Of a stretch of DNA of 64,000 nt, positions 1 to 58,432 are shown in pieces. Each line of letters opens with the position of its first letter. Position 1 is the first letter of the stretch. Origin of the DNA: Chaetoderma sp. LZ-2023a (lineage: Eukaryota; Mollusca; Caudofoveata; Chaetodermatida; Chaetodermatidae); the NCBI GenBank assembly GCA_034401795.1, contig CM067359.1:143908233-143972232 (forward strand), in the 5' to 3' direction. The notes under the pieces are model-generated. The model ran no database searches. It saw only the letters and a list, made by a program, of their open reading frames with translations, and was not told where the DNA came from. Position numbers and translations under genes: made by a program.

Positions 1-990
1 TCAGCGTTGGACAAAACTAATAATTGATAGTAAGGCGCAAGGCTGATTATGACGTCATAACTTAAAAAATAAGAAGTTAAATCGATCCGAAACAAAACCT
101 CCAGGTGTAAGGACGAATTGTAATCATATCCAGAACATTCTAACTAGACCGGATAGTTAATACAGACTATACAAACATCAGATAAACAATGATAAATGGC
201 AGTAAGATTTTATGAATATTGTCAAATATAATTGAAATGCCTCATATCATAACTAGAGTACCTGAGTCTTTAGCATAGACAAACCATCTGATCTGATGAA
301 CCGGACGCTCCACCAACCTTATGACCTCTTAACTCTCTCCACCTTAGGGGGAAGGAAGTGGATCAAGAGGGCAAAGTGAGAAGACCTTCATCCGAGGCCT
401 CCAACTCACTGGGAAAAGATTTTTGGTTAGATAACCTTACAATGTTAGTAGGAAATGGAACCTTGGTGGAGAGAAAAACAAACTCTCTGAAGATGTGATG
501 TCCTAACACTCCTAACATAAACACAAAGAGAGATTAGTATTTCATAGCGCCATTTCGAAATAAACTAGTTATTTTAGGTGCTTATCATGATAAACGTGAG
601 TCCCGGAAACACATTACACCGGGAAAAACTCGCTAAATTATAATAGAAGTCACCTGATGGCTAGGTCCTGGGCTCTCCTCTGGAGTAGTAACACGTTCTG
701 CCATATTAATCCAGGAGAAATAGAACTTCTACACAGCCAAAACTTTCGGAAATTAAGGAAAAGCCTATGAGCATAGAAAACATGAGTTGTCTCTCAGCCA
801 ATAAATTAGCAAAGAGGAAGTGCTAGTCTGCGCATGCGCGGTGGTGGGGCTGGCATCCGCCGGACTGCACTCTGACTCCCTGCCCAGTAGGGGCACCTAA
901 CTGTTTTTATTCTGAGTGTTTATTGAGTGAAAGCCGATATTTAGCGATATCAAAGAGTATTAGGGAGGTAAGTATACTCTTGAAGTGAAA
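1..990 (-). mobile_element. DIRS copy e1 (family A), left end only; rest lies outside the window
   Basis: Read on the minus strand this is the left ITR, short first gag exon and most of the 5' intron of a DIRS retrotransposon. It aligns by eye, block after block, with 52741-53729 of e6: the 'gattatgacgtcat' block, the 'ctccaactcactg' block, the 'ggaaatggaacc' block, the gag exon, the CCAAT-ETS-NRF1 cluster and the terminal 'gggaggtaagtatactc'. The outer terminus is at about 990. The body of the element would lie to the left of base 1, so nothing can be said about its coding capacity. Confidence 0.85.
654..704 (-). CDS. gag exon 1 of e1 (17 codons)
   Basis: On the minus strand an ATG at 704 opens 17 codons, MAERVTTPEESPGPSHQ, ending CAG at 654 and followed directly by GTGACT, a good splice donor. 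The same 51-nt length, the same PEExPGP core and the same CAG/GT junction recur at 1051-1101 and 24746-24796, and in altered form at 53396-53446. Exon 2 would lie left of the window. The role is inferred to be the N terminus of the gag-like protein; no database family is recognised. Confidence 0.6.
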
Positions 991-994
991 AACC

Positions 995-1371
995 TGAGTC
1001 CCGGAAACACATTACAACGGAACAAAACTCGCTAGTGTAGTTGAAATCACCTGATAATTCGGTCCTGGGCCCTCCTCTGGAGATGCAGCACGCTCAGACA
1101 TGATTTCAGGTAATTAGACACTTGAATTTTCTATTTTAGATTGAAAAGTCAGCAGAAACTTTTAAAGCCAAAAGTCGCGTGTAGACTCTCTGCCAATAAA
1201 TTAGCAAAGATGAAGTACTAGTCTGCGCATGCGCGGTGGTTGGGGCTACTCTCATCTGACTACCTGCCCAGTAGGGGCACCTATCTTTTTTAACCTGAGT
1301 TTTTATTGAATGAAAGCCGATATTTAGCAATATCAGAGTATGAGGGAGGTAAGTATACCCTTGAAGTGAAA
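995..1371 (-). mobile_element. Second family A left terminus, directly abutting e1
   Basis: This repeats the outer part of e1 (597-990), with its own gag exon, CCAAT motif, TGCGCATGCGC palindrome (1224-1234) and 'gggaggtaagtat' terminus. It begins abruptly at 'gagtcccgg', exactly where e1 ends ('gaagtgaaa'). The simplest reading is that e1 inserted into the 5' region of an older same-strand copy, whose remainder would lie beyond the left edge. Unequal recombination between ITRs is an alternative. Confidence 0.75.
1051..1101 (-). CDS. gag exon 1 of the second left terminus (17 codons)
   Basis: ATG at 1101, 17 codons reading MSERAASPEEGPGPNYQ, ending CAG at 1051 and followed by a GTGATT donor. 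Length, PEExPGP core and splice junction match the exons at 654-704 and 24746-24796, although flanking bases have diverged. The copy has no downstream gag attached inside the window, so it is a stranded exon. Confidence 0.55.
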
Positions 1372-17084: not shown

Positions 17085-17129
17085 ATGGCTGATGCAAGAA
17101 TGTTGGAGGAGTCCTCGTCATCATCCAAG
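17085..17129 (+). CDS. gag exon 1 of e3 (15 codons)
   Basis: ATG at 17085 opens MADARMLEESSSSSK, ending AAG at 17129 and followed by GTGACA. A phase-0 acceptor 'ccctcccttttcag' ends at 18055, in front of the cysteine-rich module, giving a 926-bp intron. e4 keeps the MADA start and the LE pair at 37536. Position and junction phase match the 17-codon exon of family A, although the peptide differs. If unspliced, translation would stop at TAA about ten codons later. Confidence 0.55.
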
Positions 17130-18055
17130 GTGACATTGTTCCAGGCTTTTATTTTAGGCTTGTAACTTTTGTGTGTTACCGGTTTTCGTAGCGGCCGTTT
17201 TCGGCGGTACCGCGTTTCCAGGCGCTGGGAATCCTTGTTAATTTTTTCCCAGCACCTAGGGCTAATAAACTCTTGTGTTTTATGCTTACAGGTGTGTCTT
17301 GTGTCTATACAAGGATGCCTGGTCTTCTCTGGAAGGTTGTTCACGTCCCAGGATGACTTATCATCATGATATGTCTAAGGGTTGGAGATATAATATATTA
17401 ATAAATAAAATATCTCCTTCCTTTTGTCCCATCCCCCTCATCAGTTCTTCTGGAAGAGGAGTCTCGGCGGATGGATGGACGTGTTTTCCTGCACAAGAGG
17501 ATGGTTGCCTGTGCTCAGGCTAAGGGAGTTTATTAATTATGGCGCATGATTATTTGAAAATAATTACATTTCTGCTGCCGTTTGCTATTGCACTATTTTC
17601 TCTCTTGCGTGTGCATGGGTTCTCGAGTATATATAATTTAATATTATAATAGTCGAGAGCTGAGAATGTCTGGAGATCTAGATATTTCTTGCATAAATCC
17701 GACGTCCCCTCTCCTGGTAGGAGCTTTTGCATAGTGAGGTTTGATGTCATAATCAACCAGAGTTTGCTCTTTCCTTGATGTCATGATCCTAGGTTAGAGT
17801 AGTATGTGATGTGTTCGTCTCCCTGTTTATTAAGAGTGTTGAGAGATATCTAGATAGTCATAATCTTTCTCTCTCTCTTAATTTGGGGTTCTGGTTGTAT
17901 TTGGTGTGTATTAACTTGAGAAGTCTCCTGTCCCGTCAGGGTGGTCGTAATAGTGGATGTCTTCTCTCGAGTTGGTTTTTGGTTTCTACTTAAAAATCCG
18001 TTATCACGGCTTTGAGACTGTCATACTCATTGTCTTCGTATCCCTCCCTTTTCAG

Positions 18056-19976
18056 AAGTGCTCATCCTGTCTGAAGACCATGAAAGCTAGATTCTTCCCC
18101 CACCCTTGCCATCTGTGTTCAGCGTGTAGGCTGTCCAACAAATGTGTTATTTGTGAAAAGGGGGGGGGGGATCTAACCTCTGAGTTCTTCTCTTTGCAGG
18201 CGAAGATGATGGCGGAGGAGGGGAAGAAACCGAAGGAGGGTAAGAAGAAGGCCTCTGAGAAGGGTGGGCTCGAGGCCTTCAAGAGTGAGTTGGTGAGTGA
18301 GATGCGCAGGACTTTGAAAGCCCTGATGCCTGACATGCTTCGCGGCATGTTGCCTGGCACAGGTGTTTCAACTTCCTGCGCATCGACCTCAGTGCAGGTA
18401 GCCCCCGTCCCTGGATCATGGCCTATTGGCTCGGACAAAGCGTTGAGTGATCCAGGGGCGGCCGTCTTGGACCCAGGCTTGATGTTCGCATCGCCTGGGG
18501 TGCCAGCGGCGCGAGAAGCATCAGGCGGGACCCGACCAGCGGGCCTGACCACGATCACTCGCGGAGTAAACTCTTCATCTGCCTTTGGGCAGTCTCCTGG
18601 TCAGTCTGGATTAGTTTTCTTTACTAATCCAGAGGAAGATGATGAGGACTACCTGCTCGGTCCACAGGTGGATCATGAAGACATGGATGTGAGCGCCTAC
18701 ACTCCTCTCTTGGGGAGCGTGAACGCTCGCACCTATGGCACTGTTCCCTCGGGAGCAGGTTTCATGGTTCAGCCTGTGGCCCGCATTGGAGCAGACGGCC
18801 AGCCGTATAAGATTCCACGGTTGGCCGTGGAGTCTCATACGGACGTTCCAGGCCGTGCTGGTGTGTATGATCCCCCCTCACACAAGCGCGGCCTTGGAGC
18901 CTGGTTTGCCTATGGAGAATGCTATGCCAGCCCTCGCGGGCCCGTATACGTTCCCTGGGCAGCCAGGTTCGTCTATAGCCTCCTCCTCGGCCGTGCCTGC
19001 GAATGCCATTGAGGATGACGAGGGCGCGCTGCTCGTCGGCAGTTCGCAGGTAGCCACGGACGAAGACTGGTCGGAGGCGTGTGCGTGGCTCCTCGCTGTG
19101 AGACCAGAGCTCGCCGTGGACGAGACGGTCGCCGGTAACCCTCGGGCATGGTTACAGGCGCAGCCGTTGGCCAGCACGGCTCTGTCTCTGCCGTACGCTG
19201 ATCATGTCTTAGATATGTTCGCGGCGGCAGAGGAGTCGATCCGACCAAGAGGTCGCCTCGCGAAGGCCCCCCGCGAGGTAGCTAGGCGATGTCGGGTTAC
19301 TGCCAGTCAGTATGCTCGGTATGGCCTGGCACCCAGACCGAGCGCGGACGACCGCGCCGCTCTTGGGGAAGATACGCGGCCGGGTTCCCGGGCTGACACG
19401 GGAGCGTTGTGCACGGGCGCTATGCGCTCGGCGAATGCCGCCTTGCGTGACACCGAGGAGAGCTCGCGAGCAGCGATTAGTACGCTGACGCATGTCTCTC
19501 AGCTGCTATCGGGAGTGGTAGCGGCGTCGGTGCAGCAACAGCCTAGTCCCGTGACAGTCCAACGAGCCATCCAGGATGGCATCAACCTGGCGTTGGACTG
19601 TCTGACTAGGTCGGTCACGAAGTCGCTGAGGACGAGGCGCACTTTTGCACTGGACTGGCGGGCCCTGGACTCTTTGGAGGTGAAGGTTGTCGGCACCTCC
19701 AGGAGACGGTGACTTTGGTGAACAACCAGAGGGCGCTGCGGGCACAGTTTGAAGTGCTGCGCAGGGAACACGTGCGTGTTCAGCCCTCGGCTGCTCGACA
19801 GCCGTATGCTCGTGGCGGGGCTGGCAGTGTCAGAGGCCAGCCGGTTTCAGAGACCGCGTCGGCTACGCCAGCAGCAGCGTGCGGTTGTGCGACAGCCGCC
19901 GCCTCAAGCGCAGCCTGCCAGACAGCAGCCCGCGCACCACGGTGCGCTAGTCGCGGCGCGTGGTAACCGGGCCTGA
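18056..19976 (+). pseudogene. gag exon 2 of e3, frameshifted
   Basis: Starts after the acceptor with a cysteine-rich module whose spacing C-x2-C-x10-H-x-C-x2-C-x2-C-x5-C-x2-C is the same as in e6. A Lys/Glu-rich stretch (KKPKEGKKKASEKGG), a helix (SEMRRTLKALMPDMLRGMLP), a long Pro/Gly/Ala linker and the SADDRAALGEDTRPGSR conserved core follow. At least three lesions break it: a frame change between about 18735 and 19012, a 49-bp deletion at 19654/19655 relative to e4, and an 8-bp deletion near 19840. The ending ARGNRA-TGA overlaps the ATG of the next frame (TGATG, 19974-19978), an arrangement suited to reinitiation. Confidence 0.8.
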
Positions 19977-24745: not shown

Positions 24746-24796
24746 CTGATGGCTAGGTCCTGGGCGCTCCTCCGGCGATTTAATCCGATCTGCCAT
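24746..24796 (-). CDS. gag exon 1 of e2 (17 codons)
   Basis: ATG at 24796, 17 codons reading MADRIKSPEERPGPSHQ, ending CAG at 24746 and followed by GTGACT. It keeps the PEExPGPSHQ core of e1 exactly, despite a changed centre. Its usual partner acceptor is deleted, so the exon is orphaned. Confidence 0.55.
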
Positions 24797-24879
24797 CACT
24801 CCAGGTTGATAAAACACTTCTAATATATTAATTAAACGACTTAAACAGCTCAGAAAAGCTTTAAGCATGAAACATGTGT

Positions 24880-34466: not shown

Positions 34467-34599
34467 TGGTACACCTTGGGTTGACGGGGTGGGGTGCCCA
34501 TAAATATTAGAAGCGGGAGTGTCTCTGGTACGAGTGACAACACCCGAGTGGTACTTGTGGTAACAGGAAAAAATTTTAGCGCATCAGGCCCGGTTAACA

Positions 34600-36581
34600 C
34601 GCGCCGCTCCTCGTGCACCACGGTGCGCGGGCTGCTATCTGGCTGGCTGCGCTTGAGGCGCTGGCTGACGTACAACAGCACGCTGCTGCTGGCGCGGCCG
34701 ACACGGTCTCTGAAACCGGCCGGCCTGCTGGCCTCTGACAATGCCAGCACCGCCACGAGCGTACTGCTGTCGAGCAGCCGAGGGCTGAACATGCACGTGT
34801 TCTCTTCGCAGCACTTCAAACTGTGCGCGCAGCGCCCTCCGGTTGTTCACCAAAGTCACTGTCTCTTGGAGGTGCCGACAACCTTCACCTCCAAAGAGAC
34901 CAGGGCCCGCCATTGGCGCTTGCAACAAGCGCGACTTGAGCTCCTGAGACGGGCACAAATTGTCCAACGCAAAAGTGCGCCTCGTTCTCAGCGACTGTGA
35001 CTGACCTAGTCAGACAGTCCAACGACAGGTTGATGCCATCCTGGATGGCTCGCTGGACTGTCACAGGACTAGGCTGTTGCTGCACCGACACTGCTACTAC
35101 CCCAGATAGCAGCTGAGAGACATGCGACAGCGCACTAATCGCCGCTCGTGAACTCTCCTCGGTGTTGCGCAAAGCGGCATTAGCCGAGTGCATAGCGCCC
35201 GTGCACAATGCTCCCGTGTCAGTACGGGAACCCGGCCGCGTATCTTCCCCCAGAGCGGCGCGGACAACCGCGCTCGGTCTGGGCGCTACGCCATATCGAG
35301 CATACTGACTGGCAGTAACGCGACATCGTCTAACAACCTCGCGGGGGGCATTCGCGAGGCGACCTTTCGGTCTGATCGACTCCTCTGCCGCCGAGAACAT
35401 ATCTAATTGTTCAGCATACGGCAGAGTCGTGCTGGCCAACGGCTTTGCCTGTAACCATGCCCGAGGGTTACCGGCGGCCGTCTCGTCCACGGAGAGCTCT
35501 GGTCTGACAGCGAGGAGCCACGCACACGCTTCTGACCAGTCTTCATCCGTGGCTACCTACGAATTGCCGACGAACAGCGGGCCCTCATCATCTTCAATGG
35601 CATTCGCAGGTAAGGCCGAGGAGGCTATAGACGAACCTGGCTGCCCAGGGAATATATACGGGTCCGCGAGGGCTGGCATAACATTCTCCATAGGCTGACC
35701 AGGCACCAAGGCCGCACTTGTGTGTGGGGGTTCATGCACACCAGCGCGGCCCGGAACGTTCATATGAGATTCCCTGTCTAAGCGTTGAATCTTATACGGG
35801 CGGCCGTCTGCTCCAAACCGGCCCACATGCTGAATCATGAAACCTGCTCGCGAGGGAACAGTGCCATAGGTGCGAGCGGTCACGCTCCCCATGAGAGGAG
35901 TGTAGACGCTCGCATCCAGGTCTTCATGCTCATCCTGTGGACCGAGCAGGTAGTCTTCATCATCTTCCTGGTCAGGAAAGTTAGACTCTGGATTAGTAAG
36001 GAAAACTAACCCAGACTGACCAGGAGAATGCTCGAAAGCAGATGATGAGGTTAGTCCGCGAGTGATCGTGGTCAGACCCGCTGGTCGGGTCCCGCCTGAT
36101 GCTGCTCGCACCGCTGGAACACCAGGCGATGTGAACATCAAGCCTGGGTCCAAGACAGCCGCCCCTGGATCACTAAACACTTTGTCCGAGCTAGTAGGGC
36201 ATGATCCAGGGACGGGGGCTACCTGCACTGAGGTCGACGCGCAGGAAGTTGAAACACCTGTGCCAGGCAACAAGCCGCGAAGCATGTCAGGCATCAGGTC
36301 TTTCAAAGTCCTGCGCATCTCACTCACTAACTCAACCTTGAATGCCTCGAGCTCACCCTTCTCAGAGGCCGTCTTCTTACCCTCCTTCTTAGTCTTCTTG
36401 CCCTCCTCAGCCATCAGCTTAGCCTGGGAACAGAAGAATTCAGAGGTTAGATTCCACCCCCCCCCCAACCCCCCTCTTTACAAATGACACATTTGTTAGT
36501 TAGCCTACAAGCTGAACACAGATGGCAAGGGTGGGGGAAGAATCTAGCCTTCATAGGCTTCAGACAGGATGGCTATGACTT
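34600..36581 (-). pseudogene. gag exon 2 of e4, frameshifted
   Basis: Follows the acceptor 'cccttcccttttcag' ending at 36582. An insertion creates a TAG at the third codon, before the cysteine-rich module. Downstream are a Lys-rich stretch, SEMRRTLKDLMPDMLRGLLP, a Pro/Gly linker, GEDTRPGSRTDTGALC and NNRRALRAQFEVLRREHV, in at least three frames. The GNRA-type end and TGATG overlap are retained near 34580, but the ATG there runs into TAA after two codons. Confidence 0.8.
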
Positions 36582-37491
36582 CTGAAAAGGGAAGGGATAC
36601 GAAGACAATGAGTATTATAGTTTGCAAAGCCTTGTTAATTGACTATTAGTACAAAACAAGAACAAACTCGAGAGAAGACATCCACTTTTATGACAGACAA
36701 CCCTGACGGGACAGCTGACTTCTCTAGTTAATAAAAACCAATCACAACCAGGATCCCAAATTAAGAAAGAAGAGAGAGAAAGATTATGACTATCTAGATA
36801 TCTCTCAACCATCATAATACAGGGTGATAAACACATCACAGAATTCTCTAAACTAAGATTATGACATCAAGGCGAGAGAAAACTCTGTTTGATTATGACA
36901 TCAAACCTCAATGCAAAAGCTCCTTCAAGGAGAGGGGACGTCAGAAAAGAATGCAAGAAATATCTAGATATTAAAAACATTCATACCTCCCGAATAATAT
37001 AATATCAAATTATATATATTCGAGAACCCATGCACACACAAGAGAGAATACAGTGCAATAACAAAAGGCAGCAGAAAATTGTGATTATTTTCAAATAATT
37101 ATGTGCCATAATTAATAAACTGCCTTAGCCCGAGCACAGGCAACCATCCTCTTGTGCAGGAGAACACATCCATCCATCCGCCGAGACTCCTCTTCCAGAA
37201 GAACTGATGAGGGGGGGAATGGGACAAAAGGAAGGAGATATTTCCTTTATTAATTTAATATCTCCAACCCGTAGACATATCACGATGATAAGTAAAAAAG
37301 AGACGTGAACAACCTTCGAGATAAGAACAGGAATTCTTATTCATACATAAGTCGAACCTGTAAGCACAAAGCACAAGAGATTAATAGCCCTAGGCACTGG
37401 GAAAAAATTTAACAAGGATTCCCAGCGCCTGAAGACGCGGTACCGCTGAAACGGCCGTGACGAAAACTGGTAACAAATAAAAATTACAGGT

Positions 37492-37536
37492 CTTAGATAA
37501 ATATATGGAACACTCCAACACTTTAGCATCAGCCAT
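37492..37536 (-). pseudogene. gag exon 1 of e4, donor lost
   Basis: ATG at 37536 begins MADAKVLECSIYLSK, parallel to MADARMLEESSSSSK of e3, but the base after AAG is ACC instead of a GT donor. Splicing at this place is not expected. Confidence 0.45.
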
Positions 37537-37599
37537 GATGGATAGGGATGATTTAGATAGAGAAAATTCTCGATAAAGAGCCTGTGAAGATTTTCACAA

Positions 37600-37806
37600 G
37601 TTGCTTTGCAGCCAATATATTAGAAAACGGAAGTACCGGTATGCGCATGCGCAGTGGGTGGCGTCTGTCATGGGCATGACTGTGTACTTCCACCTGCCCA
37701 TTAGGGGGACCTAACTTTTTATAATTCTGAATATTATTGAATTTAGAGCCGATATACTAGTATATCAAGAGTGTTAGGGAGGTAAGTATGTTCTCATGAT
37801 GTGAAA
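37600..37806 (-). promoter_or_regulatory. Left ITR and presumed promoter of e4
   Basis: Contains, inward, the 'acttacctccctaac' motif, 'gatatactagtatatc', 'tcccctaatgggcagg', TGCGCATGCGCA (37642-37653, full NRF1-like palindrome), 'ggtacttccg' (ETS) and 'attggc' (CCAAT). Confidence 0.6.
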
Positions 37807-44264: not shown

Positions 44265-45846
44265 CTCGGTACACAGGCTGTCTGGCTGGTTGCGCTGGAG
44301 GAGCCTGCGCTCCCCCCTAGCTGGCTTATGCTGTCGTTGCCGTGGCCGACACTACGTAGGTGGTTGGCCTCTGACAAGGCCACCACCACCACCACCTCTG
44401 CTGAGGGTGGAAGGCAGGGGGCGCTGCTCGAACACGCTCCCTGCGGAGCACTTCAAACTGCTCTTGCAGCGCCCTCTGGTTGTTCACCAGGTTTACGGTT
44501 TGTTGGAGGTGCAGACATCCTTCACCTCCAAACAACCCTGGACCTGCCATCGGCGTCTGAAGAAGCCGATTGTACAGTTCCTGCGAGGGGCACAAATTGT
44601 CAATGGCAAATGTGCGCCTCGCCCGTAAACTCCTGGTTACGGATCTCGTCATGCAGTCCAGAGCCAGGTACATGCCGTCCTGGATGGCTCTCTGGACTGC
44701 AAAAGGAGAAGTTTGGCGGACCACGGATGCTGCTACTACCCCCTGTAGCAGCTTGGAAACATGCGAGAGCCGAGATGGCTCCTCTCGTACTTTCCTCCGT
44801 GTCCCGCAGCGCGGAATTAGCGTTGCACTGGGCGCTAGCGCACAAGGGTCCCGTGTCAGACTGGGACCCAGGCCGCGTGTCTTCGCCCAAAGCCACACGG
44901 TCATCCGTGCAAGGCTTTGGACCGACGCCATACTTCTGATATAGATCAGAACTTATACGGCAGCGCCGTGCCACCTCGCGAGGGGCCTTCGCAAGGCGTC
45001 CTTTCGGCAGAATGGACGTCTCTGCTGCAGCGAACATATCAACGATATGCTCCGCATACGGCAGAGATGGCTCGTCACCGGTTTCCCTCTCAACCACAGG
45101 CACTGGTCCCGCTGGGAAGCCGGTGGATCCACCTGGAGTTCTGGCTTGATGTTCACCAGCCATTGGCAAGCATCCAGCCAGTCTTCCTTGGTGGCCACCT
45201 GTGAATGTTCGACGAGCCTAGGGCCTTCGGCGTCGTCCTCAACCACATTCACTGGTGGGGTAATGGCCGGAGCTGAAGATGCTCCTGGAAAGCCAGGTAA
45301 GCCATACGGACCCGCAAGGGATGGCATGGCTTGCGCAGTGGCTATTCCAGGAGCCGGATCTACGGCGTCATGGGAGGCTAAACACATGACGTCACAGTCC
45401 GGGCCTTCCTCACGGTAACTCTCGGCAAGCCAAGGGATACGGTATGGACAGCCATCGGCTCCTAGCCATTGAGCAGTGAAACCCACTCCCGAAGTAGTTC
45501 CATGGAAAAGGTCATTTCCATGGCCATCGACTCATCGGTAGGCCATAAGTGTCCTCTTCTTCCTACCCAGAAAGATTAGACGCCAAGCTTGAAAAGGGAT
45601 CAAGCTCGGCCTGGGCAGGAGGGATATCGTGTGAGGTGCTGATACCCATAGCCTTAGGCTGCTCTAGAGCACTCGATAAGCAAGCGCCCACGGCCATGGC
45701 TTTCGCTCCCGGGTCCACGGGCGAGGCAAGCCTCAACGCCGGACCAACGGGAGCCATCTCTGGGTCTATAACGAAAACTGGTTTTGAGGGAAAAAGCAGG
45801 CCTTCACAAAACTGTGGCATGAAGGGCATTTGTTCTCAATAACCCT
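44260..45846 (-). pseudogene. gag exon 2 of e5, internally deleted
   Basis: The acceptor 'ccatttgtgtcttttcag' ends at 45847, the third family with this acceptor. Exon 2 starts RVIENKCPSCHSFVKACFFP, equivalent to the start of the cysteine-rich module. The rest of the module and the Lys-rich stretch are missing. Downstream GEDTRPGSQSDTGPLC, RRTFAIDNLCPSQELYNRLL, GPGLFGGEGCLHLQQTV and NNQRALQEQFEVLRRERVR are readable in several frames. Confidence 0.75.
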
Positions 45847-45900
45847 CTGAAAAGACACAAATGGAAACAATTAGTTTTTAGTTATGACGAACCAACAAAC

Positions 45901-46695: not shown

Positions 46696-47083
46696 TTAAA
46701 CGAAATCTAGGATTTCTTTTTTCACGAGAGAGTTGATACTTACCTCCCTAATACTTTTGATATTGCTAAATATCGGCTTTCACTCAATAAAACACTCAGA
46801 TTAAAAACAGTTAGGTGCCCCTACTGGGCAGGGAGTCAGAGGTAGTCCGGCGGATGCTCGCCCCACCACCGCGCATGCGCCGACTACTACTTCCTCTGGC
46901 TCATTTATTGGCTAACACATGCAACTACCAAGAGCCTGAAGACCGAGCCTCTGTGGGGCGGAGAGGCCGGGTCAGTATCTAGGGAGGTAAGTATCAACTC
47001 TCTCGTGAAAAAAGAAATCCTAGATTTCGTTTATTTCACATCAAGAGTATACTTACCTCCCTAATACTTTTGATATTGCCAGA
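46696..47083 (-). repeat. Right ITR and ICR of e6
   Basis: The outer arm 46696-46755 is repeated inverted at about 46975-47033. 47034-47083 is the reverse complement of the left terminus (53680-53729). The junction of the two ICR halves reads GAAATAAACG on the element strand and so contains AATAAA. GCGCATGCGC at 46871-46880, 'cctctgtggggcggagagg' near 46948. Confidence 0.85.
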
Positions 47084-47607
47084 ATTCGAAAGTGAATCTG
47101 GCGGGAGGGAGGCGAGGTCAAAAGACCAGCTCTTCCCTATACGCTTTCAAGCGTTTTAAGGCACTTATGACGTCTGAAACTGTGTGAAAACACAGTCAGG
47201 ATTTGATAAACCATCGGATAACACAACCGATGCCTGAGAGATGACCGATTTGTCATATGCGCTCCCCCCCCCTCCCTTGGGAGGAAGATTAAATGACCTC
47301 AATGTCCTACACGCTCTCTTCGTACTAGTGCTAAGTACTATAGGACAGAGACGAAAAGGCTCCATTTTCGTATACTCTCTATAAAGAACCACAACCCACA
47401 TAAACCATCACCATATTAATAACACTGGGTAACGTGACAATACAAACAATGAACAACACATGAACAAGACTGACCTTGTTGTCCTAGGAAGCTGTCATCA
47501 TGAATCCAGTAGAGAAGGATGATACAGTCCCGACAAGTGGTTGTCACCGTCGCTGAATGGCGAAGTATATAAGCAATGCGGAGGCACTCTTCACAAACAT
47601 AAAGCGG

Positions 47608-50505
47608 TTATTGTTTCAAAATCGACAAGGCGAGAGGGTTAGAGGTGTCACGGAGGTAATGGTCTGTAAAACTAGACTCACAGTGCCACTGAGCCACTGA
47701 CATAATATCATCCACAGGGACCCCATTAAAAAGGGCAGTGGATGTCACGACACCGCGGACACTGTGAGCCTTGGCCACGTCAACCTGTCGCCCGGTGGCG
47801 GATTTGTGACAAAATTGAATACATTCCACAATCCACCTAGAAATGGTGTCCTTAGACGCCCTACCATGGGGTTCAATATATGACAACCATAACGCTGACT
47901 GGTCGGTACGCCACTCCGAAGTACGCTGTTTGTACCGGAGCAGCGCCCGTACGGGGCACCATACTTTAGAATTAGGATCATATCTAGTTAAAGATGGCAA
48001 AAAAATAGGTTGACCTGGATATTTCAATGACTGATTTTTAGACAAGAAATTAATCCTAGGTAGAAGCTTAAGGCCTTCCCCTGTAACCACAAAACGGTCA
48101 ACCTCGGCTGATAAGGCGTGAATTTCACTCCTACGCCTAGCCGAGGCCGCAGCAATTAAAAATACAGTTTTAAGAGTTAACATTTTCATAGAAATGGAAC
48201 TAAGTGGTTCAAAAGGCTTATCACCTAGTACCTGGAGCACCAGTGATAAACTCCAAGACGGAATCAGTGGAGGATTCCTTGGTCTTAGATTGCCCATGCC
48301 TTTAATTAATACATTTAATGTACTTACTTCATCACTCCCCCTATTAGCCAAGCAAGGAATAACAGTCATTAAAGCTGACTTATAACCAGCAATAGAGTTA
48401 GGCTTGAGGCTATAGGCATCATATAGGTGACAGAGGAAATCAGCCACTACCTGAATAGATGATTCCATTGGATCAATACATCTTTTTGAGCACCATTCTG
48501 CAAATCTGTTGATTTTATAATTATATGCTCTGGAGGTTGACCCCCTCCTGGCTTTGGCCATAAACATGGCCGCTTGCTCAGAAAAGCCCTCCTTAATTCT
48601 AGATTCCTTGACAACATCCACGCAGTCAATCGGAACATTGACGGATTGTCGTGAAGGGCCTTGCCCTGGAAGATAAGGTTGTCCATCAGAGGCAGCGGAA
48701 CCGGATTGCAGACCAGAAGGTCCAGCAGATCCGTATACCACGATCGGCTTGGCCAATCCGGGGCGATCAGAAGCACTTGGCACTCCTGCTGCCTGATTTT
48801 CTGAAGCACCTTTGGAATCAGGATTGCTGGGGGGAATGCGTATGCATACATTCCCTCCCAGCTGATAGCTAACGCATCTGTTGCGAAAGCGCTTGGGTCT
48901 GGAATCGGAGAGACGTACGTCGTCATCTTCGCATTCTTCTTCATTGCGAACAAATCTATGTTGGGTTTCCCCCAATGGTCGAACAGACGATCCGCCACAC
49001 ATTGATTTAGTTGCCATTCCGTGGGTAAAACACTCATCCTTCGGCTCAATGAGTCTGCTAGCAGATTTAACCTCCCCGGAATATGAACTGCTTTCAAGGT
49101 GATCCCATGATCCAGGCACCAACAAAGCAGTCCCCATGTCATCATACAGAGACTGGGCGACTTCGTTCCGCCCTGGCGGTTTATGTAAGTCACTACTGTT
49201 GAGTTGTCTGAACGAATTAGAACAATCTTGCCCTGAACTTTCTGTAAGAAATGTTCCAGGCCCAGGACTACTGCTCTTAGCTCTAGTAGATTGATATGTT
49301 CCTTGGACTGATCCAGATCCCAAAGCCCTGATACTGTGGACTCTTCCAGACAAGCTCCCCACCCCTCCATCGATGCATCTGTATACACAGTCACCTGAGG
49401 GTGGGGAGGGGTTAGCAAAACCCCCAGCAAGAGATTCTCTGTATTCAACCACCATTGCAGGTGGTGAATCAGAGGCGCCAACACCGGCACGTTCGAGTCC
49501 AGCGAACCTGAACTCTGGGTCCACTGTGTCATGAGAAACAACTGGATCGGACGCCTGCGCAAGGCGGCCTGTGGAATGACTGGTTCCAAAGAAACCATCA
49601 AGCCCAGCATTCTCAAGTAAACCCGTGCCAGGACATGACGACTGTCGCACACCGACTGAATTACCGAGATGAGTACTTGAACCCTCTCCTGAGTGGGGTA
49701 CACATACCCCGTCTCCAGATCGAAGAACATGCCCAGGTAAACAAACTTCTGGGATGGAGTTAGCTCTGATTTCGGGAAATTGATCATCCAGCCCAAGTCC
49801 GAGAGAGTTTTCAAAACAATCTCCAGATTGGCTGACAACGATTCCCGGGTGTGTGCTTTCAATAGCCAGTCGTCTATGTACGTGTGGACTGCTATGCTTC
49901 TCCTGCGGAGGTATGCAGTGATCGCGAGAACCACACGGGTGAAGACCCGAGGAGCCGTGGAAATTCCGAAGGGTAACACCCTGAATTCCCACCGCCGGCC
50001 CTGAAATGCAAATCTCAGGAATCGACGGAAACTCCTCTCTATGGGAATGTGGAAATAAGCATCCTTCAAATCTATCGACGCTGTCCACATCCCTCGCTCT
50101 AACCCCGCCAACACCGAGCGCACAGTCTCCATCTTGAAACTGGGTGTCTCGATGAACTTGTTCAACGGCTTGAGGTTGAGAATCGGCCTCCACCCTCCGG
50201 TGTTTTTTGTTACTAAGAACAGGGTTGAATAGAAGCCCGGGCACCTCTGTGCCGGCTGAATGGCTTCTTTTAGTATGAGGGAATTTATTTCCTCCTCTAT
50301 ACACAACCTCTGATCCGGATCCCGTGGAATGGGAGTCCAGATCGGCGCGAGAGACAGTCGCGATGGCGGGCCTGTCACCCAGTCGGGACGATACCCGACC
50401 GAAAGCCATCGCAAGACTAAACGGTCCTGAGTCAACCGCTTCCACTCTGGCAAGCGGGCGGCCAAACGGCCGCCCACCGGTCCACCTAGGGATAGAGGTG
50501 GACAT
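47608..50505 (-). CDS. Tyrosine recombinase of e6, with a long open N-terminal extension
   Basis: The last 331 residues (from SRIKEGFSEQAAMF, 48603) form the DIRS tyrosine recombinase that inserts the circular element DNA. Catalytic signatures: ARRRSEIHAL (about residue 791), HSVRG (His 914, Arg 917), AQWHCESSF (Trp 940) and HYLRDT (Tyr 950). The 634 codons upstream are open but lie in the -1 frame of RT-RNase H; they are Ser/Pro/Gly/His-rich with no domain I recognise. The frame has an ATG at 50505 and is the same frame as gag: after the gag TGA at 50580 there is no stop for 75 nt before that ATG. So either the protein begins internally near the domain, or it is made as a long product. The start is unresolved. 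Confidence 0.8.
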   Translation of the reverse strand: MSTSIPRWTGGRPFGRPLARVEAVDSGPFSLAMAFGRVSSRLGDRPAIATVSRADLDSHSTGSGSEVVYRGGNKFPHTKRSHSAGTEVPGLLFNPVLSNKKHRRVEADSQPQAVEQVHRDTQFQDGDCALGVGGVRARDVDSVDRFEGCLFPHSHREEFPSIPEICISGPAVGIQGVTLRNFHGSSGLHPCGSRDHCIPPQEKHSSPHVHRRLAIESTHPGIVVSQSGDCFENSLGLGLDDQFPEIRANSIPEVCLPGHVLRSGDGVCVPHSGEGSSTHLGNSVGVRQSSCPGTGLLENAGLDGFFGTSHSTGRLAQASDPVVSHDTVDPEFRFAGLERAGVGASDSPPAMVVEYRESLAGGFANPSPPSGDCVYRCIDGGVGSLSGRVHSIRALGSGSVQGTYQSTRAKSSSPGPGTFLTESSGQDCSNSFRQLNSSDLHKPPGRNEVAQSLYDDMGTALLVPGSWDHLESSSYSGEVKSASRLIEPKDECFTHGMATKSMCGGSSVRPLGETQHRFVRNEEECEDDDVRLSDSRPKRFRNRCVSYQLGGNVCIRIPPSNPDSKGASENQAAGVPSASDRPGLAKPIVVYGSAGPSGLQSGSAASDGQPYLPGQGPSRQSVNVPIDCVDVVKESRIKEGFSEQAAMFMAKARRGSTSRAYNYKINRFAEWCSKRCIDPMESSIQVVADFLCHLYDAYSLKPNSIAGYKSALMTVIPCLANRGSDEVSTLNVLIKGMGNLRPRNPPLIPSWSLSLVLQVLGDKPFEPLSSISMKMLTLKTVFLIAAASARRRSEIHALSAEVDRFVVTGEGLKLLPRINFLSKNQSLKYPGQPIFLPSLTRYDPNSKVWCPVRALLRYKQRTSEWRTDQSALWLSYIEPHGRASKDTISRWIVECIQFCHKSATGRQVDVAKAHSVRGVVTSTALFNGVPVDDIMSVAQWHCESSFTDHYLRDTSNPLALSILKQ

Positions 50506-50687
50506 AAGGAGGGCCAGAGTGGCACTGTTCTCTCGGCCTGAAACACCGGAGTGGTTCCCACCGCGGTAACCAGGCCATCAGGCCCGATTACCGCGACCAG
50601 ATCCCCGCGCGCCCCGCCCAGCGCCGCGCGCACCACGGTGCGCGGGCTGCTGTCTGGCTGGGTGCGGCTGGGGAGCCTGCGCCCCCC
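48447..50687 (-). CDS. RT-RNase H of e6
   Basis: Reverse transcriptase plus RNase H that copies element RNA into DNA. Numbering from 50636: GFYSTLFLVTKNTGGWRPIL (134-153), ASIDLKDAYFHIPI with motif A Asp 189, LPFGISTAPRVFTRVV (221-236), YIDD (253-256), SQKFVYLGMFFDLETG; RNase H YTDASMEGWGACLEE with Asp 420, LLELRAVVLG with Glu 452, IRSDNSTVV with Asp 477 and LADSLSRR with Asp 528. A C-terminal part (PNIDLFAMKKNAK to LQNGAQKDVL) is conserved in all copies. No methyltransferase motif like DPPY was seen. The frame is open from 50687 but has no ATG before the RT core; only GTG at 50636. It overlaps gag in the +1 frame, so a +1 frameshift or reinitiation would be needed. It overlaps the recombinase domain by about 157 nt. 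Confidence 0.88.
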   Translation of the reverse strand, partial: GGRRLPSRTQPDSSPRTVVRAALGGARGDLVAVIGPDGLVTAVGTTPVFQAERTVPLWPSLCPPLSLGGPVGGRLAARLPEWKRLTQDRLVLRWLSVGYRPDWVTGPPSRLSLAPIWTPIPRDPDQRLCIEEEINSLILKEAIQPAQRCPGFYSTLFLVTKNTGGWRPILNLKPLNKFIETPSFKMETVRSVLAGLERGMWTASIDLKDAYFHIPIERSFRRFLRFAFQGRRWEFRVLPFGISTAPRVFTRVVLAITAYLRRRSIAVHTYIDDWLLKAHTRESLSANLEIVLKTLSDLGWMINFPKSELTPSQKFVYLGMFFDLETGYVYPTQERVQVLISVIQSVCDSRHVLARVYLRMLGLMVSLEPVIPQAALRRRPIQLFLMTQWTQSSGSLDSNVPVLAPLIHHLQWWLNTENLLLGVLLTPPHPQVTVYTDASMEGWGACLEESTVSGLWDLDQSKEHINLLELRAVVLGLEHFLQKVQGKIVLIRSDNSTVVTYINRQGGTKSPSLCMMTWGLLCWCLDHGITLKAVHIPGRLNLLADSLSRRMSVLPTEWQLNQCVADRLFDHWGKPNIDLFAMKKNAKMTTYVSPIPDPSAFATDALAISWEGMYAYAFPPAILIPKVLQKIRQQECQVLLIAPDWPSRSWYTDLLDLLVCNPVPLPLMDNLIFQGKALHDNPSMFRLTAWMLSRNLELRRAFLSKRPCLWPKPGGGQPPEHIIIKSTDLQNGAQKDVLIQWNHLFR

Positions 50688-52626
50688 TCACTGCTGGCCG
50701 AATCGCCCGTGGCCTAGGCCTACGTTGCGACGGTGGCTGGCCCCTGACCTGGCCAGCACCACCTCGAGCCTGCAGAGGACGATACGCAGGGGGTGCCGCG
50801 CGAACACGCTCCCGCCGGAGCACCTCAAATTGTTCCCGCAGCGCCCTCTGGTTATTAACCAGAGTGACCGTCTCCTGGAGGTGCCTGCATCCCTCACCTC
50901 CAAAGAGACCAGGACCTGTCATAGGCGTCCGCAGCAGCCTATTATACAGGTCCTGGGACGGGCACAGATTGTCAAGCGCAAACGTGCGCCTCGCCCGGAC
51001 ACTTCTGGTTACCGCCCGCGTCAAACAGTCCAAAGCCAGGTTGATACCATCCTGAATGGCTCTCTGGACTGTCACCGGGCTAGGTTGGCGTGATGCGGAA
51101 GCCGCTACCACCCCTTGTAGCAGCTGGGAAACGTGGGATAGAGCGGCAATCGACGCTCTCCCACTCTCCTCCGCATCCCGCAGCGCGGCATTTGCCGAAC
51201 GCAACGCGTTCGAGCACAAGACTCCCGTGTCAGAACGGGAGCCCGGCCGCGCATCTTCGCCCAAAGCCGCGCGATCATCAACGCTCGGCTTTGGCACCAC
51301 ACCGTACCGCTGGTAATCCAGGGGCACGATGCGGCACCGCTTCGCCACCTCGCGAGGGGCCTTCGCGAGACGTCCATTCACCTTAATGGACGCCTCTGCC
51401 GCTTCGAACATGTCCACGACATGCTCAGCAAGCGGCAGAGATGGCATAGCGGTAGCCGCCGGCCTACCAGCTAACCACGGCCTATGGTCACGCTGGCTAG
51501 CCGGCAGCTCCACGGGTAGATCTGGCCGAACACTTACCAGCCACTGGCAAGCGTCCGACCAATCCTCCTCCGTGGCTAACTGCGAGCGCTCTACTAGACG
51601 AGGGCCTTCGTCTTCCTCCAGAGCACTCGCAGTTGATGTCGACGGCGGGTAAGCTGATACCCCTGGCAAGCCTGGAAAAGCATGCGGGCCCGAGAGAGCA
51701 GGCATGCTAAAATCCGCGGCTTGACCAGGAGCAGGCGCCGTGGCAGAGCGCGGGGTAAACACCGCTCTACCACGGGTCTGACCAGCACCAGCCATACCAT
51801 CGGCAAGCCGAGGTATGCGGTATCCGTGGTCAACAGCACCGCCCGGGGACACCCTCTGGACCGTGAAATCTACTCCTGCGTGAGTAGAACCATGGAACAC
51901 GTCGCCTGCATTCCCCGCGAGGGGTGCACAGACGTCGTATTCCATGGCCACGTCCTCAGAAGGCGACCCCAGCAGGAGATCCTCTTCTTCCTGGCCAGAA
52001 AGATTAGACTCCGGGTCAGCAAAGAAAGCTAACCCGGACTGGCCAGGAAAGGTGCCATAGGAGGGTTTGGCACCTTCGGCGCGCGGATACCCGGGGTCTG
52101 ATGAGCAGACCGCGGGTCCCAGCAACAACCGTTGTCCACGGCCCCTCGGCGCGGCGCCATGCCTGCTGCCAGGGCCTTGGACTGCCCCCAACAAAGGGGC
52201 CACCTCTGAATCCACAACCGGACCGGACCTAAAGAGACCGGATTCAGAGGCGGGGATCACCTGCTCGTAAGCAGATGCCGAGGACAACAAAGGAGCTGGC
52301 CCAGGGAGCATGCCACGAAGCAACTCTGGGACCAGATCCTTTATTGTCCTCTGCATCTCTTGCAACATTTCGGACCTGAAGGCCTCCATATCCACCGCGG
52401 ATGAGGCCTTCTTCTTACCCTTCTTACACACTTTCTCCTTCTTCTTCCTCTCTTCCTCCATTACCTTCTCCCTTGCCTGCAATGCGAGAAAATCAGACAT
52501 TAATTCGCCCCCCCACAGCTTACATACGTCGCACTTCAGCAACGGTCCACAGGGACTGCAGCTGAAGCACAAGTGCGGGACGAAGCGGCTTTTCAGAAAC
52601 CTCCCGCAGGACGGGCAACCAGGTCT
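50578..52626 (-). CDS. gag exon 2 of e6
   Basis: Gag-like structural protein. Starts after the acceptor 'gtcctttgtcctgtttcag' (ending 52627). Residues 4-35 form a cysteine-rich module C-x2-C-x10-H-x-C-x2-C-x2-C-x5-C-x2-C, likely zinc-binding. Next come a Lys/Glu-rich coiled segment (EKVMEEERKKKEKVCKKG), a helix (MQRTIKDLVPELLRGMLPGP), a long Pro/Gly/Ser linker, a conserved acidic-Trp segment (LATEEDWSDACQWLVSVRPD), PREVAKRCRI, RAALGEDARPGSRSDTGVLC, a helical core to NNQRALREQFEVLRRERVR, and an Arg/Gly/Pro-rich tail ending GSGRGNRA. The 27 bases the open frame gains upstream of the acceptor begin with TTG and are probably intron. Stop TGA at 50578-50580. Confidence 0.85.
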   Translation of the reverse strand, partial: RPGCPSCGRFLKSRFVPHLCFSCSPCGPLLKCDVCKLWGGELMSDFLALQAREKVMEEERKKKEKVCKKGKKKASSAVDMEAFRSEMLQEMQRTIKDLVPELLRGMLPGPAPLLSSASAYEQVIPASESGLFRSGPVVDSEVAPLLGAVQGPGSRHGAAPRGRGQRLLLGPAVCSSDPGYPRAEGAKPSYGTFPGQSGLAFFADPESNLSGQEEEDLLLGSPSEDVAMEYDVCAPLAGNAGDVFHGSTHAGVDFTVQRVSPGGAVDHGYRIPRLADGMAGAGQTRGRAVFTPRSATAPAPGQAADFSMPALSGPHAFPGLPGVSAYPPSTSTASALEEDEGPRLVERSQLATEEDWSDACQWLVSVRPDLPVELPASQRDHRPWLAGRPAATAMPSLPLAEHVVDMFEAAEASIKVNGRLAKAPREVAKRCRIVPLDYQRYGVVPKPSVDDRAALGEDARPGSRSDTGVLCSNALRSANAALRDAEESGRASIAALSHVSQLLQGVVAASASRQPSPVTVQRAIQDGINLALDCLTRAVTRSVRARRTFALDNLCPSQDLYNRLLRTPMTGPGLFGGEGCRHLQETVTLVNNQRALREQFEVLRRERVRAAPPAYRPLQARGGAGQVRGQPPSQRRPRPRAIRPAVRGAQAPQPHPARQQPAHRGARGAGRGARGSGRGNRA

Positions 52627-53395
52627 CTGAAACAGGACAAAGGACAGGGACAATGAGCAAGATAGTTAAGGTTAGCAAACTCAAAACCAACTAAAAAGAG
52701 AGGACAGGATCATCAAGATCAGAAATCAAGAAGAACCAGCCATGGACAAAACGTTAATTGTTAATAAAAAGGCCAAGGCCGATTATGACGTCATCACTCT
52801 CGTGACCAAATTAATCGATCCGCAACAAGCACCAAGAGCAAGAACGAATTGTATAAGTAAAAACGGAACATTTCCGTTGAATTGGCATTTCGAGTACACA
52901 ACAATCAGATATACAGAGATAACTCCTTCCAATTCTAGTATTGGCAAAAAGGGAAATTATCTCCCCTTTTGTTTACATTATAATTAGATACCTGATCCTT
53001 GTATAGACAAACCATCCAACGTGATGAACCGGAGAACTCCACCATAGTACGCCTCTACATTCTCTCCACCTCAGGGGAAGGAATTGGAGCAAGAGGGCAA
53101 AGTGAGAAGACCTTTATAACAGGCCTCCAACTCACTGAACATAGATCTTTTGGTTAGATAACCTAACAGTATTAGTAGGAAATGGAACCGTGGTGGAGAG
53201 AAAACATATCCTCTTGTGCCGAAAAGTCCACCAAAGCTTCTATGCGATACCTGTGGACAAAACACAAAGAGAAATGAGACATATGAAGCACCATGTTGTA
53301 AAAACCCAACATAATCAGGCGCTAATCACGGTAAGCGCGAGTCCCGGAAATACATTAAACCGGGACAAAACACGCTAGCATATCAAAGAATTCAC

Positions 53396-53446
53396 CTGAT
53401 AAAGCGATCCCGCTCCTTCTAGAGGCGAATCCTCCCTTTCCGACAT
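53396..53446 (-). CDS. gag exon 1 of e6 (17 codons)
   Basis: ATG at 53446 opens MSEREDSPLEGAGSLYQ, ending CAG at 53396 followed by the GTGAAT donor. The acceptor at 52627 is also phase 0, giving a 769-bp intron. The same 51-nt length, start and junction are seen in e1, its neighbour and e2. Function unknown; probably the N terminus of gag. Confidence 0.6.
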
Positions 53447-53534
53447 GCTTCCACCAAAAATAAACGTCAAACGTGAGCGAAAAACAAGGCAACGCGCAGA
53501 AAAGTATGAAAATCACAAAACCGCATGTAACCCT

Positions 53535-53729
53535 TTGCCAATAAATGAGCAAAGAGGAAGTAGTAGTCGGCGCATGCGCGGTGGTGGGGCGAGCATCCGC
53601 CGGACTACCTCTGACTCCCTGCCCAGTAGGGGCACCTAACTGTTTTTAATCTGAGTGTTTTATTGAGTGAAAGCCGATATTTAGCAATATCAAAAGTATT
53701 AGGGAGGTAAGTATACTCTTGATGTGAAA
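53535..53729 (-). promoter_or_regulatory. Left ITR and presumed promoter of e6
   Basis: From the terminus inward on the minus strand: 'acttacctccctaatac', 'tgctaaatatcggctttcac', 'caataaaacactcag', 'ggtgcccctactgggcagg', GCGCATGCGC (53570-53579), 'acttcctctttgc' and 'tttattggc'. The order NRF1-like, ETS core, inverted CCAAT is shared with e1, e2, e3 and e4. Confidence 0.6.
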
Positions 53730-55687: not shown

Positions 55688-56730
55688 TTAAACATAAAGA
55701 ATTAAATTAAAACCCAAGTAATAACTCTCACCATTACCCGCAGACGCACAGTCCTCGCGAAAATGGTGGTATCTGCTTGGTAAATGGTCTTCGGGCTTTT
55801 TGGTTAAAATAGTAATGTTCCTAAAGAAAGATGCCGCTGCGCTCTGGTCTTTCAAATAAAAAGAGGTAAAAGTAGACTCAGATTTCCATCCTGCAACTTG
55901 CATAAGTTCGTCTACAGAAGAGCCAGCAGAGCGAAAGAGGTAGCCATCCCTCTGACATCATGACCTTAATGTGATATAGATTGATTTGCTCAGGAGAAGC
56001 AATCTCGTAGCAGAGTTGAATGGTGTCACAAATCCATCTAGCAATGGATGCTTTAGAGACCAGTCTGGCTACCCCTTCCGCGTAGGGAACACATAAGCTT
56101 TAAGCTAATCGAAGCGATGGGTTCAAATATGATGACCTGCCACAACCTGAAGAATCAACGCCAGGTTCCCGGAAGGTAAAGGTTTAGCAATAGGAAGACG
56201 AATATTACCTAAACCTCTGATGAAAAATTCAGCACCTCAGTATCTATAACATCCGCATTTAACGAAAAAGGAATAGAGTATGTTAAGGAAATCTATATCC
56301 TATAACATTGTTAGCAGTCAGATGAAGCGAATCGAACAGATAGAATAAGAAATCTAACACTTGAGATATAGAAAACAGAATCGGGCACGATATCCTGATT
56401 TGAACACCATCCTCCGAAAATCTTAAGTCGACCCTTGAAAACTCTTCGGGTTGACTCCCTCTTGGCCGAATTAATGATTTTCTGAGATCTTGCAGAAATT
56501 TTATTTTCCGTGAACGAGCACTCGATATTCTCCAAACACACCGACTGAAGATTCCTGGGTTTGGATGAAGGCCCGTTCCCCTTACCTGGGATAACAGATC
56601 TGGGGACACTGGCAGCAGACGCGGGAGTCTACTAGAAGCTCGAGAAGGTCTACGAAACAGATCCTTTATGGCCAAAAGGGAGCTATCAACAAAATCTCGC
56701 AGAATTAATACTTGACTTTCTTCATAACCA
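55688..56730 (-). pseudogene. Tyrosine recombinase of e7, heavily broken
   Basis: The C-terminal signature QVAGWKSESTFTSFYLKDQS (about 55845-55903) matches the W-x2-E-S-x-F-x3-Y-L end of DIRS recombinases, with the nucleophile Tyr. An N-terminal part near 56675-56283 holds SQVLDFLFYLFDSLHLTANN followed by VIGYR, corresponding to QVVADFLCHLYDAYSLKPNS of e6. The middle is split over several frames and no HxxR could be read cleanly. Confidence 0.65.
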
Positions 56731-56776
56731 AGGGAAGCATGATAGTCGAAGGGAACGCATATGCGAAGATTCCTGT

Positions 56777-58428
56777 TCAGGACTGAGACAGGGCGTCCAC
56801 CGCCAACGCCTGATTGACCGGAAAAGGAGACATGAAATAGGAGATCTGGGCATTCAGAGAGGTCGCGAACAGGTCTACATGGGGACGATCCAGGAGGGGT
56901 ACAGAGAATTCAGACATCCTGGGACATGTGAGGACACCAGGAAACTCTGTTTCATACGACACCACGTGAGGAGATTCCACACCTCCAAAGTCGAGACGAC
57001 TTTGTGCCTCCCTGCTTGCTGATATAGGAAACTACTGTCGAATTGTCCGATCGAATCGAGATATTGATGCACTGCACTTGATCCGACCAAGCAAGGACCA
57101 AGCAAAGAGAGTCTTCTTGACAGCCCACCTTTCCAGAATGTTGATGTGGGCTGATGACTCCTCCAGGAACCACAGGCCTGAGACCGAAAGTGAACCCCAG
57201 ACCGCTCCCCCTCCCTCCTGGGAAGCGTCTGCAAAGATGATTGCTTGAGGAGAAGACTTGACCAGAGGAACACCCATCAGAAGCAGAGAGCGATCCTTCC
57301 AGATTCTAGGTGGGGACTTAAATGCTCTCTGACCGGGATCTGATGGTACACTGAATGGGTCGCTGTTTCCCTAGGGAAATGAGCTACATTTGGAAAAGTC
57401 TCCTCATCAGCGCCTCCCCCGGAACGATGTTCTCGACGCTGACCATCAAGCCTAACACCCGGAGAAAGAAAATTGCTCTGACCACGGCAGAGGATGTCAA
57501 AATTTCCATGGCTACTAAGATGGCTTCTACTCTTACATATGAAGGGAAGACTAAGCCTTGATCTAGGTCGAAAGCCACACCTAGGTGGGTGAAACCCTGA
57601 GACGGGACCAAATATGATTTTCCTAGATTTATAACCCATCCTAGACTGGAAGCCAGACTGCAGACCTCTGGAATGATACTTGCCAGAATTGAGGCAGATT
57701 CTGCTTTTAGCAACCAATCGTCTATGTAAAGGTGAAGGGGACAGAACGACTGTGCAGAAAACCTGCCACTGCTGACACTAGGCGGGTGAAGAAAAGAAGC
57801 CGTGGTCAGGCCGAATGGCATGACTCTGATTGCCATACCCGGCCCTTGAACGCGAATCTCATGAATTTTCTGAATGGAGGGAGGATGAGAATGTGAAAGT
57901 AGGCGTCCTTGAGATCTATGGACGCTGTCCACATGCCTGGACTCAGACTGGCGATAATCTGAGATACCGTCTCCATCTTGAATTTGGGGTGGATATATGC
58001 AGATTTAATCTCTTCAGATTGATGATTGGACGCCATCCACCTGATTTCTTGGGGACTAGAAATAGATTTGAGTAGAATCCCGGGTCTACTCTCCAACATG
58101 GAACCTCTTCTATAGCCTTCTTCAACCGCATTGACTCCAATTCGTCTTCCAGGGCTCCCAACTTCTCCAGATTGGATGGAACTGGAGTCCATTTGGGCTG
58201 GCAAGACATAGAAGGCAGATCTATCCAAGACGGTGCATACCCCCAGCGGCTTTGCTCTAACAGCCAGTAGTCCTGCGCGAGGGCTTGCCAAGTCTCCCAG
58301 AACAGAGACAAGCGCCCTCCTACTGGCACGCTGGGAAGAAGGGACTGCACCGATAGATCCAAAGGTGGTAGAAGATGAGGAAGGACTGGTAAATGAGAAA
58401 GGGAAAGGCCTGCCCGGGCTGATGCCAC
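56777..58428 (-). pseudogene. RT-RNase H of e7, frameshifted
   Basis: RT: GFYSNLFLVPKKSGGWRPII (58090 region), ASIDLKDAYFHILI, VMPFGLTTA, YIDDWLLKAES (YIDD box) and THLGVAFDLDQGLVFP. RNase H: IIFADASQEGGGAVW (57245 region), ILERWAV, IRSDNSTVVSYIS and HVPG; then RPHVDLFATSLNAQISYF, matching PNIDLFAMKKNAK of the other copies. At least four frame changes. The order and motifs place it in DIRS, but distant from A-C. Confidence 0.75.
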
Positions 58429-58432
58429 CCCT

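Follow-up and report, generated by a model that had tools for sequence, protein, structure and literature searches.

A candidate short first coding exon of gag, probably joined by splicing, in DIRS-like retrotransposons

Self-comparison of the 64-kb stretch of DNA analysed here, called the window below, showed a number of DIRS-like elements and fragments, nested in or next to one another, belonging to families A and B (Table 1). The elements e6, e3, e4 and e5 of an earlier, sequence-only reading of this DNA were taken to be A6, B1, B2 and A5. A nested insertion was seen in A2, where the family-A element is split by the complete-ended family-B element B1. Both A6 and B1 have complete ends, with inverted terminal repeats and with internal complementary regions in exact match to the outer ends. 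The inverted terminal repeats measure 166 nt at 95.8% identity in B1 and 163 nt at 92.6% in B2, and a search for one in A5, the left end of which is missing, found none. The internal complementary regions are of 44 and 58 nt in B1, both at 100%, and of 44 nt at 100% and 58 nt at 94.8% in B2.

The reverse transcriptase of B1 matched PF00078 with an E-value of 5.7e-22; the match of A6 is given in Table 1. The RNase H match of A6 (PF17917, 3e-4, 21.3 bits) lies below the curated cut-off of 24.8 and its Dam-type methyltransferase match (PF05869, 0.0016, 18.6 bits) below that of 28.1; Phage_int_SAM matches in A6 and B1 are both below the Pfam cut-off. The recombinase ORFs of A6 and B1 have R, HSVR and HYLRD residues in common, and we take their R, HxxR and Y residues to be the tyrosine recombinase signature. 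The DIRS-like character of the host elements is well supported, since the inverted terminal repeats, the internal complementary regions and the reverse transcriptase are clear, with RNase H, methyltransferase and recombinase below threshold. A further degenerate reverse transcriptase element, DIRS-like by eye and with RVT_1 matches below cut-off, lies at 56283-59814 on the minus strand.

A protein search with the reverse transcriptase returned 847 proteins among 7993 scored; among the best 120 of the 847, the top match was 57% identical and of jgi source, and a Pinctada imbricata protein was 33% identical. Reverse transcriptase scans of viral contigs, run both with a single protein and with an alignment of 8 sequences, gave no relative, phage records gave none, one exact repeat-end pattern was not found in prokaryote genomes, and Rfam gave no match at the gathering threshold. 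The sequence GAGGTAAGTAT, presumably a near-perfect U1-type donor, occurs 15 times, compared with 0.04 expected from base composition (for example at 46736, 47049, 53704, 16834, 23515 and 37779); judged by position, its copies belong to the repeat ends and the internal complementary regions, and those at the element ends point outward.

Table 1 Elements, open reading frames and candidate splice features in the window. A slash between letters marks a predicted splice junction. Splice-site ranks come from human-type frequency matrices, which are not those of the host, over stretches chosen by the analyst.
Feature	Position	Strand	Description
Element A1	1-991		truncated by window edge
Element A1b	986-1379		left-end fragment
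Element A2	11603-25086		interrupted by B1
Element A6	46697-53729	-	both ends complete
Element B1	16817-23883	+	both ends complete
Element B2	30694-37806		ends near-complete
Element A5	40358 to past 45846		no left end identified
A6 left inverted terminal repeat	53537..53714	-	178-nt match to 46736-46912, 98.9%
A6 right inverted terminal repeat	46736..46912	-	pairs with left repeat
A6 internal complementary regions, two abutting	46980..47079	-	46 + 54 nt, 100% complementary to outer ends
A6 reverse transcriptase ORF	48447..50636	-	PF00078 2e-23; matches to RNase H and Dam-type methyltransferase below cut-off
A6 probable tyrosine recombinase ORF	47608..50505	-	overlaps reverse transcriptase ORF; Phage_int_SAM matches sub-threshold
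A6 candidate exon 1	53396..53446	-	51 nt, MSEREDSPLEGAGSLYQ, donor CAG/GTGAAT, rank 1 of 80 GT sites
A1 candidate exon 1	654..704	-	MAERVTTPEESPGPSHQ, donor CAG/GTGACT, rank 1 of 60; acceptor position outside window
A1b candidate exon 1	1051..1101	-	MSERAASPEEGPGPNYQ, donor CAG/GTGATT, rank 1 of 22; in left-end fragment
A2 candidate exon 1	24746..24796	-	MADRIKSPEERPGPSHQ, donor CAG/GTGACT, rank 3 of 42; acceptor and cysteine module deleted
B1 candidate exon 1	17085..17129	+	45 nt, MADARMLEESSSSSK, donor AAG/GTGACA, rank 2 of 94
B2 candidate exon 1 remnant	37513..37536	-	first 24 nt left; 28-nt deletion took donor
A6 inferred gag intron	52627..53395	-	769 nt; from donor and acceptor scores
A6 mid-intron junction CCACAG/GTATCG	53250..53251	-	acceptor rank 1 of 50, donor rank 4 of 80
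A6 gag exon 2	50578..52626	-	682 codons + stop, open throughout
A6 cysteine module	52522..52617	-	seven Cys, B1-like spacing (translation, by eye)
B1 inferred gag intron	17130..18055	+	926 nt
B1 mid-intron junction TTACAG/GTGTGT	17291..17292	+	acceptor rank 1 of 70, donor rank 1 of 94
B1 gag exon 2	18056..19012	+	up to first in-frame stop
B2 gag acceptor CCCTTTTCAG/AAG	36581..36582	-	rank 1 of 63; stop is third codon after junction
A5 gag acceptor GTCTTTTCAG/AGG	45846..45847	-	rank 2 of 51; module after junction cut short

The sequence-only reading had described, at the left ends of family A, a block of 51 nt that opens with ATG and ends CAG/GTGA, and a 45-nt counterpart in family B ending AAG/GTGACA. 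All four family-A blocks and the family-B block were confirmed at the positions of Table 1. The common peptide formula proposed with them holds for A1, A1b and A2 but not for A6 (53396-53446), which is off at three formula positions. This candidate exon 1 is present with its donor in five of the seven copies or fragments, the exceptions being B2, with its 28-nt deletion, and A5, for which a scan of the window for ATG-open blocks found none of the exon-1 type. In 5/5 copies the donor lacks a G at +5 and the ATG has a purine at -3.

The 64-kb window has, over both strands, seven ATG-open blocks that are 12-24 codons long and end in (C or A)AG/GTGA; five of them are the exon 1 copies and two lie inside the A6 gag. 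When the leader was dinucleotide-shuffled, 10 of 1000 shuffles for A6 and 45 of 1000 for B1 gave a comparable block (12-24 codons, donor score of at least 4.3 for A6 or at least 2.5 for B1) within the first 250 nt, and 32 and 158 of 1000, respectively, gave one anywhere in the leader; the family-A copies are homologous and give no independent trials for such chance estimates. The possibility that exon 1 is conserved merely as part of the inverted repeat was rejected, the exon lying 90 nt to the inside of the repeat. Further motifs, GCATGCGC, ACTTCC and ATTGGC, were found in the five leaders tested (A6, A2, A1, B1, B2), with ACTTCC and ATTGGC at a near-constant 16 and 34-35 nt from GCATGCGC; we assume them to be motifs of the NRF1, ETS and NF-Y types. 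The ATG of exon 1 is 80-98 nt from ATTGGC, and other ATGs lie at most 30 nt from it in A6, A1 and A2.

We analysed codon-level constraint by NG86 in the six pairs of family-A copies, which are not independent of each other. Exon 1 showed a pS of 0.62 and a pN of 0.26; the in-frame ratio is 0.42, the two alternative frames give 0.82 and 2.64, and shuffling its middle 45 columns matched this codon signal in 3 of 2000 trials. Of the 98 gapless 51-nt windows in the leaders of A1, A2 and A6, 67 are clear of the exon; none of these mutually overlapping windows reached the low ratio of the exon, and two were free of stops in all three copies. Exon 1 is under codon-level constraint, as judged from few sequences. 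The signal is weak once A6 is left out (matched in 106 of 2000 shuffles).

The exon was also compared with its flanks in the same six pairs. Pairwise identity is 43-57% in the 5' UTR, with 4-10 gap columns per pair, and 51-82% in exon 1, with zero gap columns; over the first 51 positions of the intron, identity is 74-88% and exceeds that of the exon in 6/6 pairs. The earlier statement that the flanking UTR diverges around a preserved peptide and donor therefore stands upstream and fails downstream. What is conserved in exon 1 is its frame, its length, its donor and, in A1, A1b and A2, its peptide; in all pairs its DNA is less conserved than the intron next to it, and in A6 the peptide has drifted. 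It follows that either the start of the intron is itself constrained or the evolution of the exon is rapid. A longer intron block, at 53060-53251 in A6, is alike at 144 of 176 positions in its A1 counterpart, with small indels, and is perhaps a cis-acting RNA element.

At the other end of the inferred intron, a TTTCAG acceptor lies directly before the cysteine module in A6, B1, B2 and A5 (4/4), as had been claimed, with the stop at the third codon in B2 and the truncated module in A5 listed above. By the matrices of Table 1, the gag acceptor ranks 2 of 50 in A6 and 2 of 70 in B1, so that it is first or second in all four elements. Exon 1 and an intact acceptor occur together only in A6 (53396/52626) and B1 (17129/18056), and in both the junction is in phase 0 at either end, again in agreement with the sequence-only reading. 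Between the nearest upstream stop and the acceptor there is no in-frame ATG in A6, B2 and A5 (three of the four copies), and in B2 the frame ahead of the acceptor is closed by a stop. The exception is B1, with an in-frame ATG in the intron at 17957 that is open into gag. Within exon 2, A6 has its first ATG past the module, at codon 43; that of B1, at codon 9, falls within the module. Where no in-frame ATG stands ahead of the module, the start codon must come from something upstream.

The cysteine modules of B1 and B2 differ by 6 silent and 4 changing substitutions (pS 0.286 and pN 0.053, from 10 differences only), and those of A6 and B1 show a pS of 0.78 and a pN of 0.39. The acceptor tracts of A6 and B1 are similar, 1 of 1000 shuffles being as good, and the remainder of the two introns gave short matches only. 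Later similarity to gag in B1 lies in another frame, so this copy is not intact. Protein searches with the whole gag (7994 candidates scored) and with residues 385-620 (7996 scored) gave no relative at E ≤ 0.001; with E-value limits of 10 for Pfam and 1 for PDB, weak matches only were obtained, among them PHF5 over the B1 module at 0.045, below the Pfam cut-off. The deletion in A2 (24480) joins the intron to gag behind the cysteine module, and the fusion keeps an in-frame ATG CCC AGT GAG TTG GAG CTA ATG, which could start gag without splicing. We rejected this deletion as an exact intron loss, its joint not being GT-AG and its far end lying past the cysteine module (by eye). No exact intron loss was found among the copies that can be judged (A6, B1, B2, A1 and A2).

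The observations on element structure, exon frame and length, splice-site ranks, phase and codon-level constraint are best explained if the short block is the first coding exon of gag, joined to the rest by splicing, a reading of the sequence to which we give a probability of about 0.72. It is favoured by the donor and acceptor ranks, by phase 0, by the codon-level constraint and by a cysteine module that has no start codon of its own in three of the four copies. The spliced gag mRNA put forward by the sequence-only reading gains partial support, with the reservation that the pair of donor and acceptor is intact in two copies only. Counted against it were also the weakness of the codon signal without A6, the B1 ATG at 17957, which could start gag unspliced, a mid-intron acceptor that outscores the gag acceptor in A6 and B1, the absence of a gag relative in the searches above, and the lower conservation of the exon than of the intron start in 6/6 pairs, for which the probability was set slightly lower.

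With a spliced first exon, transcription would start close to the inner edge of the left inverted repeat, and exon 1 would supply the AUG together with 15-17 residues. The spliceosome would remove an intron of 769 nt in A6, or of 926 nt in B1, and the AUG would be joined in phase 0 to a large exon 2 opening with the seven-cysteine module. We propose that the unspliced RNA is kept as the template of reverse transcription, which is why the copies would retain the intron. The donor without a G at +5 may keep splicing inefficient, so that enough full-length RNA would be left.

The mid-intron acceptor bears on where exon 1 would first be joined. This acceptor (53250 in A6, 24604 in A2, 17292 in B1, 37357 in B2 and 511 in A1) ranks first or second in each of the five leaders and is directly followed by GT in A6, A2, B1 and B2 (4/5). 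In form, the resulting AG/GT junction resembles a recursive splice site, although it may just as well be an alternative acceptor. Joining of exon 1 to this site first, as the end product or as a step respliced at AG/GT to gag, is possible although on balance unlikely, and as its two-step form would yield the very mRNA of the spliced first exon, the odds of the two overlap. The mid blocks of families A and B are alike, with 5 of 1000 shuffles as good for A6 and B1 and 0 of 1000 for A6 and B2, but 3 of 106 other 50-mers of the B1 leader score equally with the A6-B1 block, some possibly overlapping the site. Only in B1 is the donor half of the junction strong, ranking there as the top donor; A6 and B2 have a weak one, and A1, with GA in place of GT, has none. 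A6 and A2 do not share the phase-0 frame after the site (by eye), unlike what a coding exon would show, and the mid-intron block was rejected as a coding cassette.

We consider it improbable that the block is a short, unspliced upstream ORF that regulates translation, with gag starting at a non-AUG codon or at an ATG within the apparent intron. Read without splicing, the exon-1 frame closes 6 codons past the exon in A6, giving an ORF of 23 codons in A1, A2 and A6, as such a role would allow; in B1 the open ATG at 17957 leads into the cysteine module, and the sequence past the donor is better conserved than the block itself. However, the end of this ORF varies (29 codons in A1b, 26 in B1) while the donor persists, A6, B2 and A5 offer no ATG and the frame before the B2 acceptor is closed, and the strength of donor and acceptor would be left unexplained. 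Finally, a chance block in dead repeat DNA, common to the copies by descent alone, would fit the homology of the family-A copies, the several broken copies and the drifted A6 peptide, but is very improbable given the codon-level constraint, the equivalent block in the distant family B, the shuffles of the leader (10 of 1000 for A6, 45 of 1000 for B1) and the 682-codon gag open in A6.

If the spliced first exon is real, ORF-based annotation truncates gag in such elements, dropping its start and, in A6, the cysteine module, and activity tests that assume a single gag ORF would fail. In the accessible text on DIRS1-like retrotransposons (Piednoel et al. 2011, PMC3266345), gag is described as one ORF, and the words 'intron', 'splic' and 'exon' are absent from it. 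The elements described there and those of the window are alike in inverted terminal repeats, internal complementary regions and the order of gag ahead of overlapping ORFs for pol and a tyrosine recombinase, the latter only probable in the window; they differ in that the gag start codon is here apparently on a separate exon. The words 'intron' and 'splic' are likewise absent from a fungal DIRS/Ngaro paper and a Xenopus paper, and in a nematode paper 'intron' is absent and 'splic' is used in an unrelated sense. Among the matches listed in the accessible literature, judged by titles and abstract openings, there was no report of a DIRS gag intron, nor of recursive splicing in retrotransposons.

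A spliced gag is known in BARE; that no report was found for DIRS is no proof of novelty. According to the sections available of Chang et al. 2013 (PMC3735527), BARE makes Gag from a spliced subgenomic RNA, apart from the RNA that is copied into DNA. A separate spliced RNA for Gag would be common to both systems, being predicted here from sequence alone. BARE, however, is an LTR element with one ORF, whereas here a 5' intron would lie between the gag start codon and gag. DIRS would, if the prediction holds, join the retroelements in which one share of the RNA is translated into coat protein and another is copied.

The second comparison concerns TMPO/LAP2alpha and ZNF451, mammalian genes with a captured DIRS1-like gag (Abascal et al. 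2015, PMC4495291, in its accessible part). There, as predicted here, a splice acceptor leads into the gag exon, which in those genes is the captured one; they differ in being domesticated vertebrate sequences, and in the accessible part no acceptor is shown inside a DIRS element. When our gag was scanned against Pfam (E up to 10), no LAP2alpha family was listed, so protein homology of the gags is undetected, and the link to the LAP2alpha/ZNF451 capture, drawn by analogy, is one of arrangement and not of detected homology. Partly for this reason we hold as unlikely the wider proposal that the supply of DIRS Gag is set by a tuned splicing switch, with a weak first donor and a recursive mid-intron AG/GT, and that a portable gag acceptor explains the capture of gag, in the role of a terminal exon, by two unrelated mammalian genes. 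A native acceptor before gag is nevertheless what the inference of Abascal et al. requires, as far as the accessible part of that paper sets it out, and the elements of the window would, if spliced as predicted, provide a concrete model for the acceptor postulated there for DIRS gag capture.
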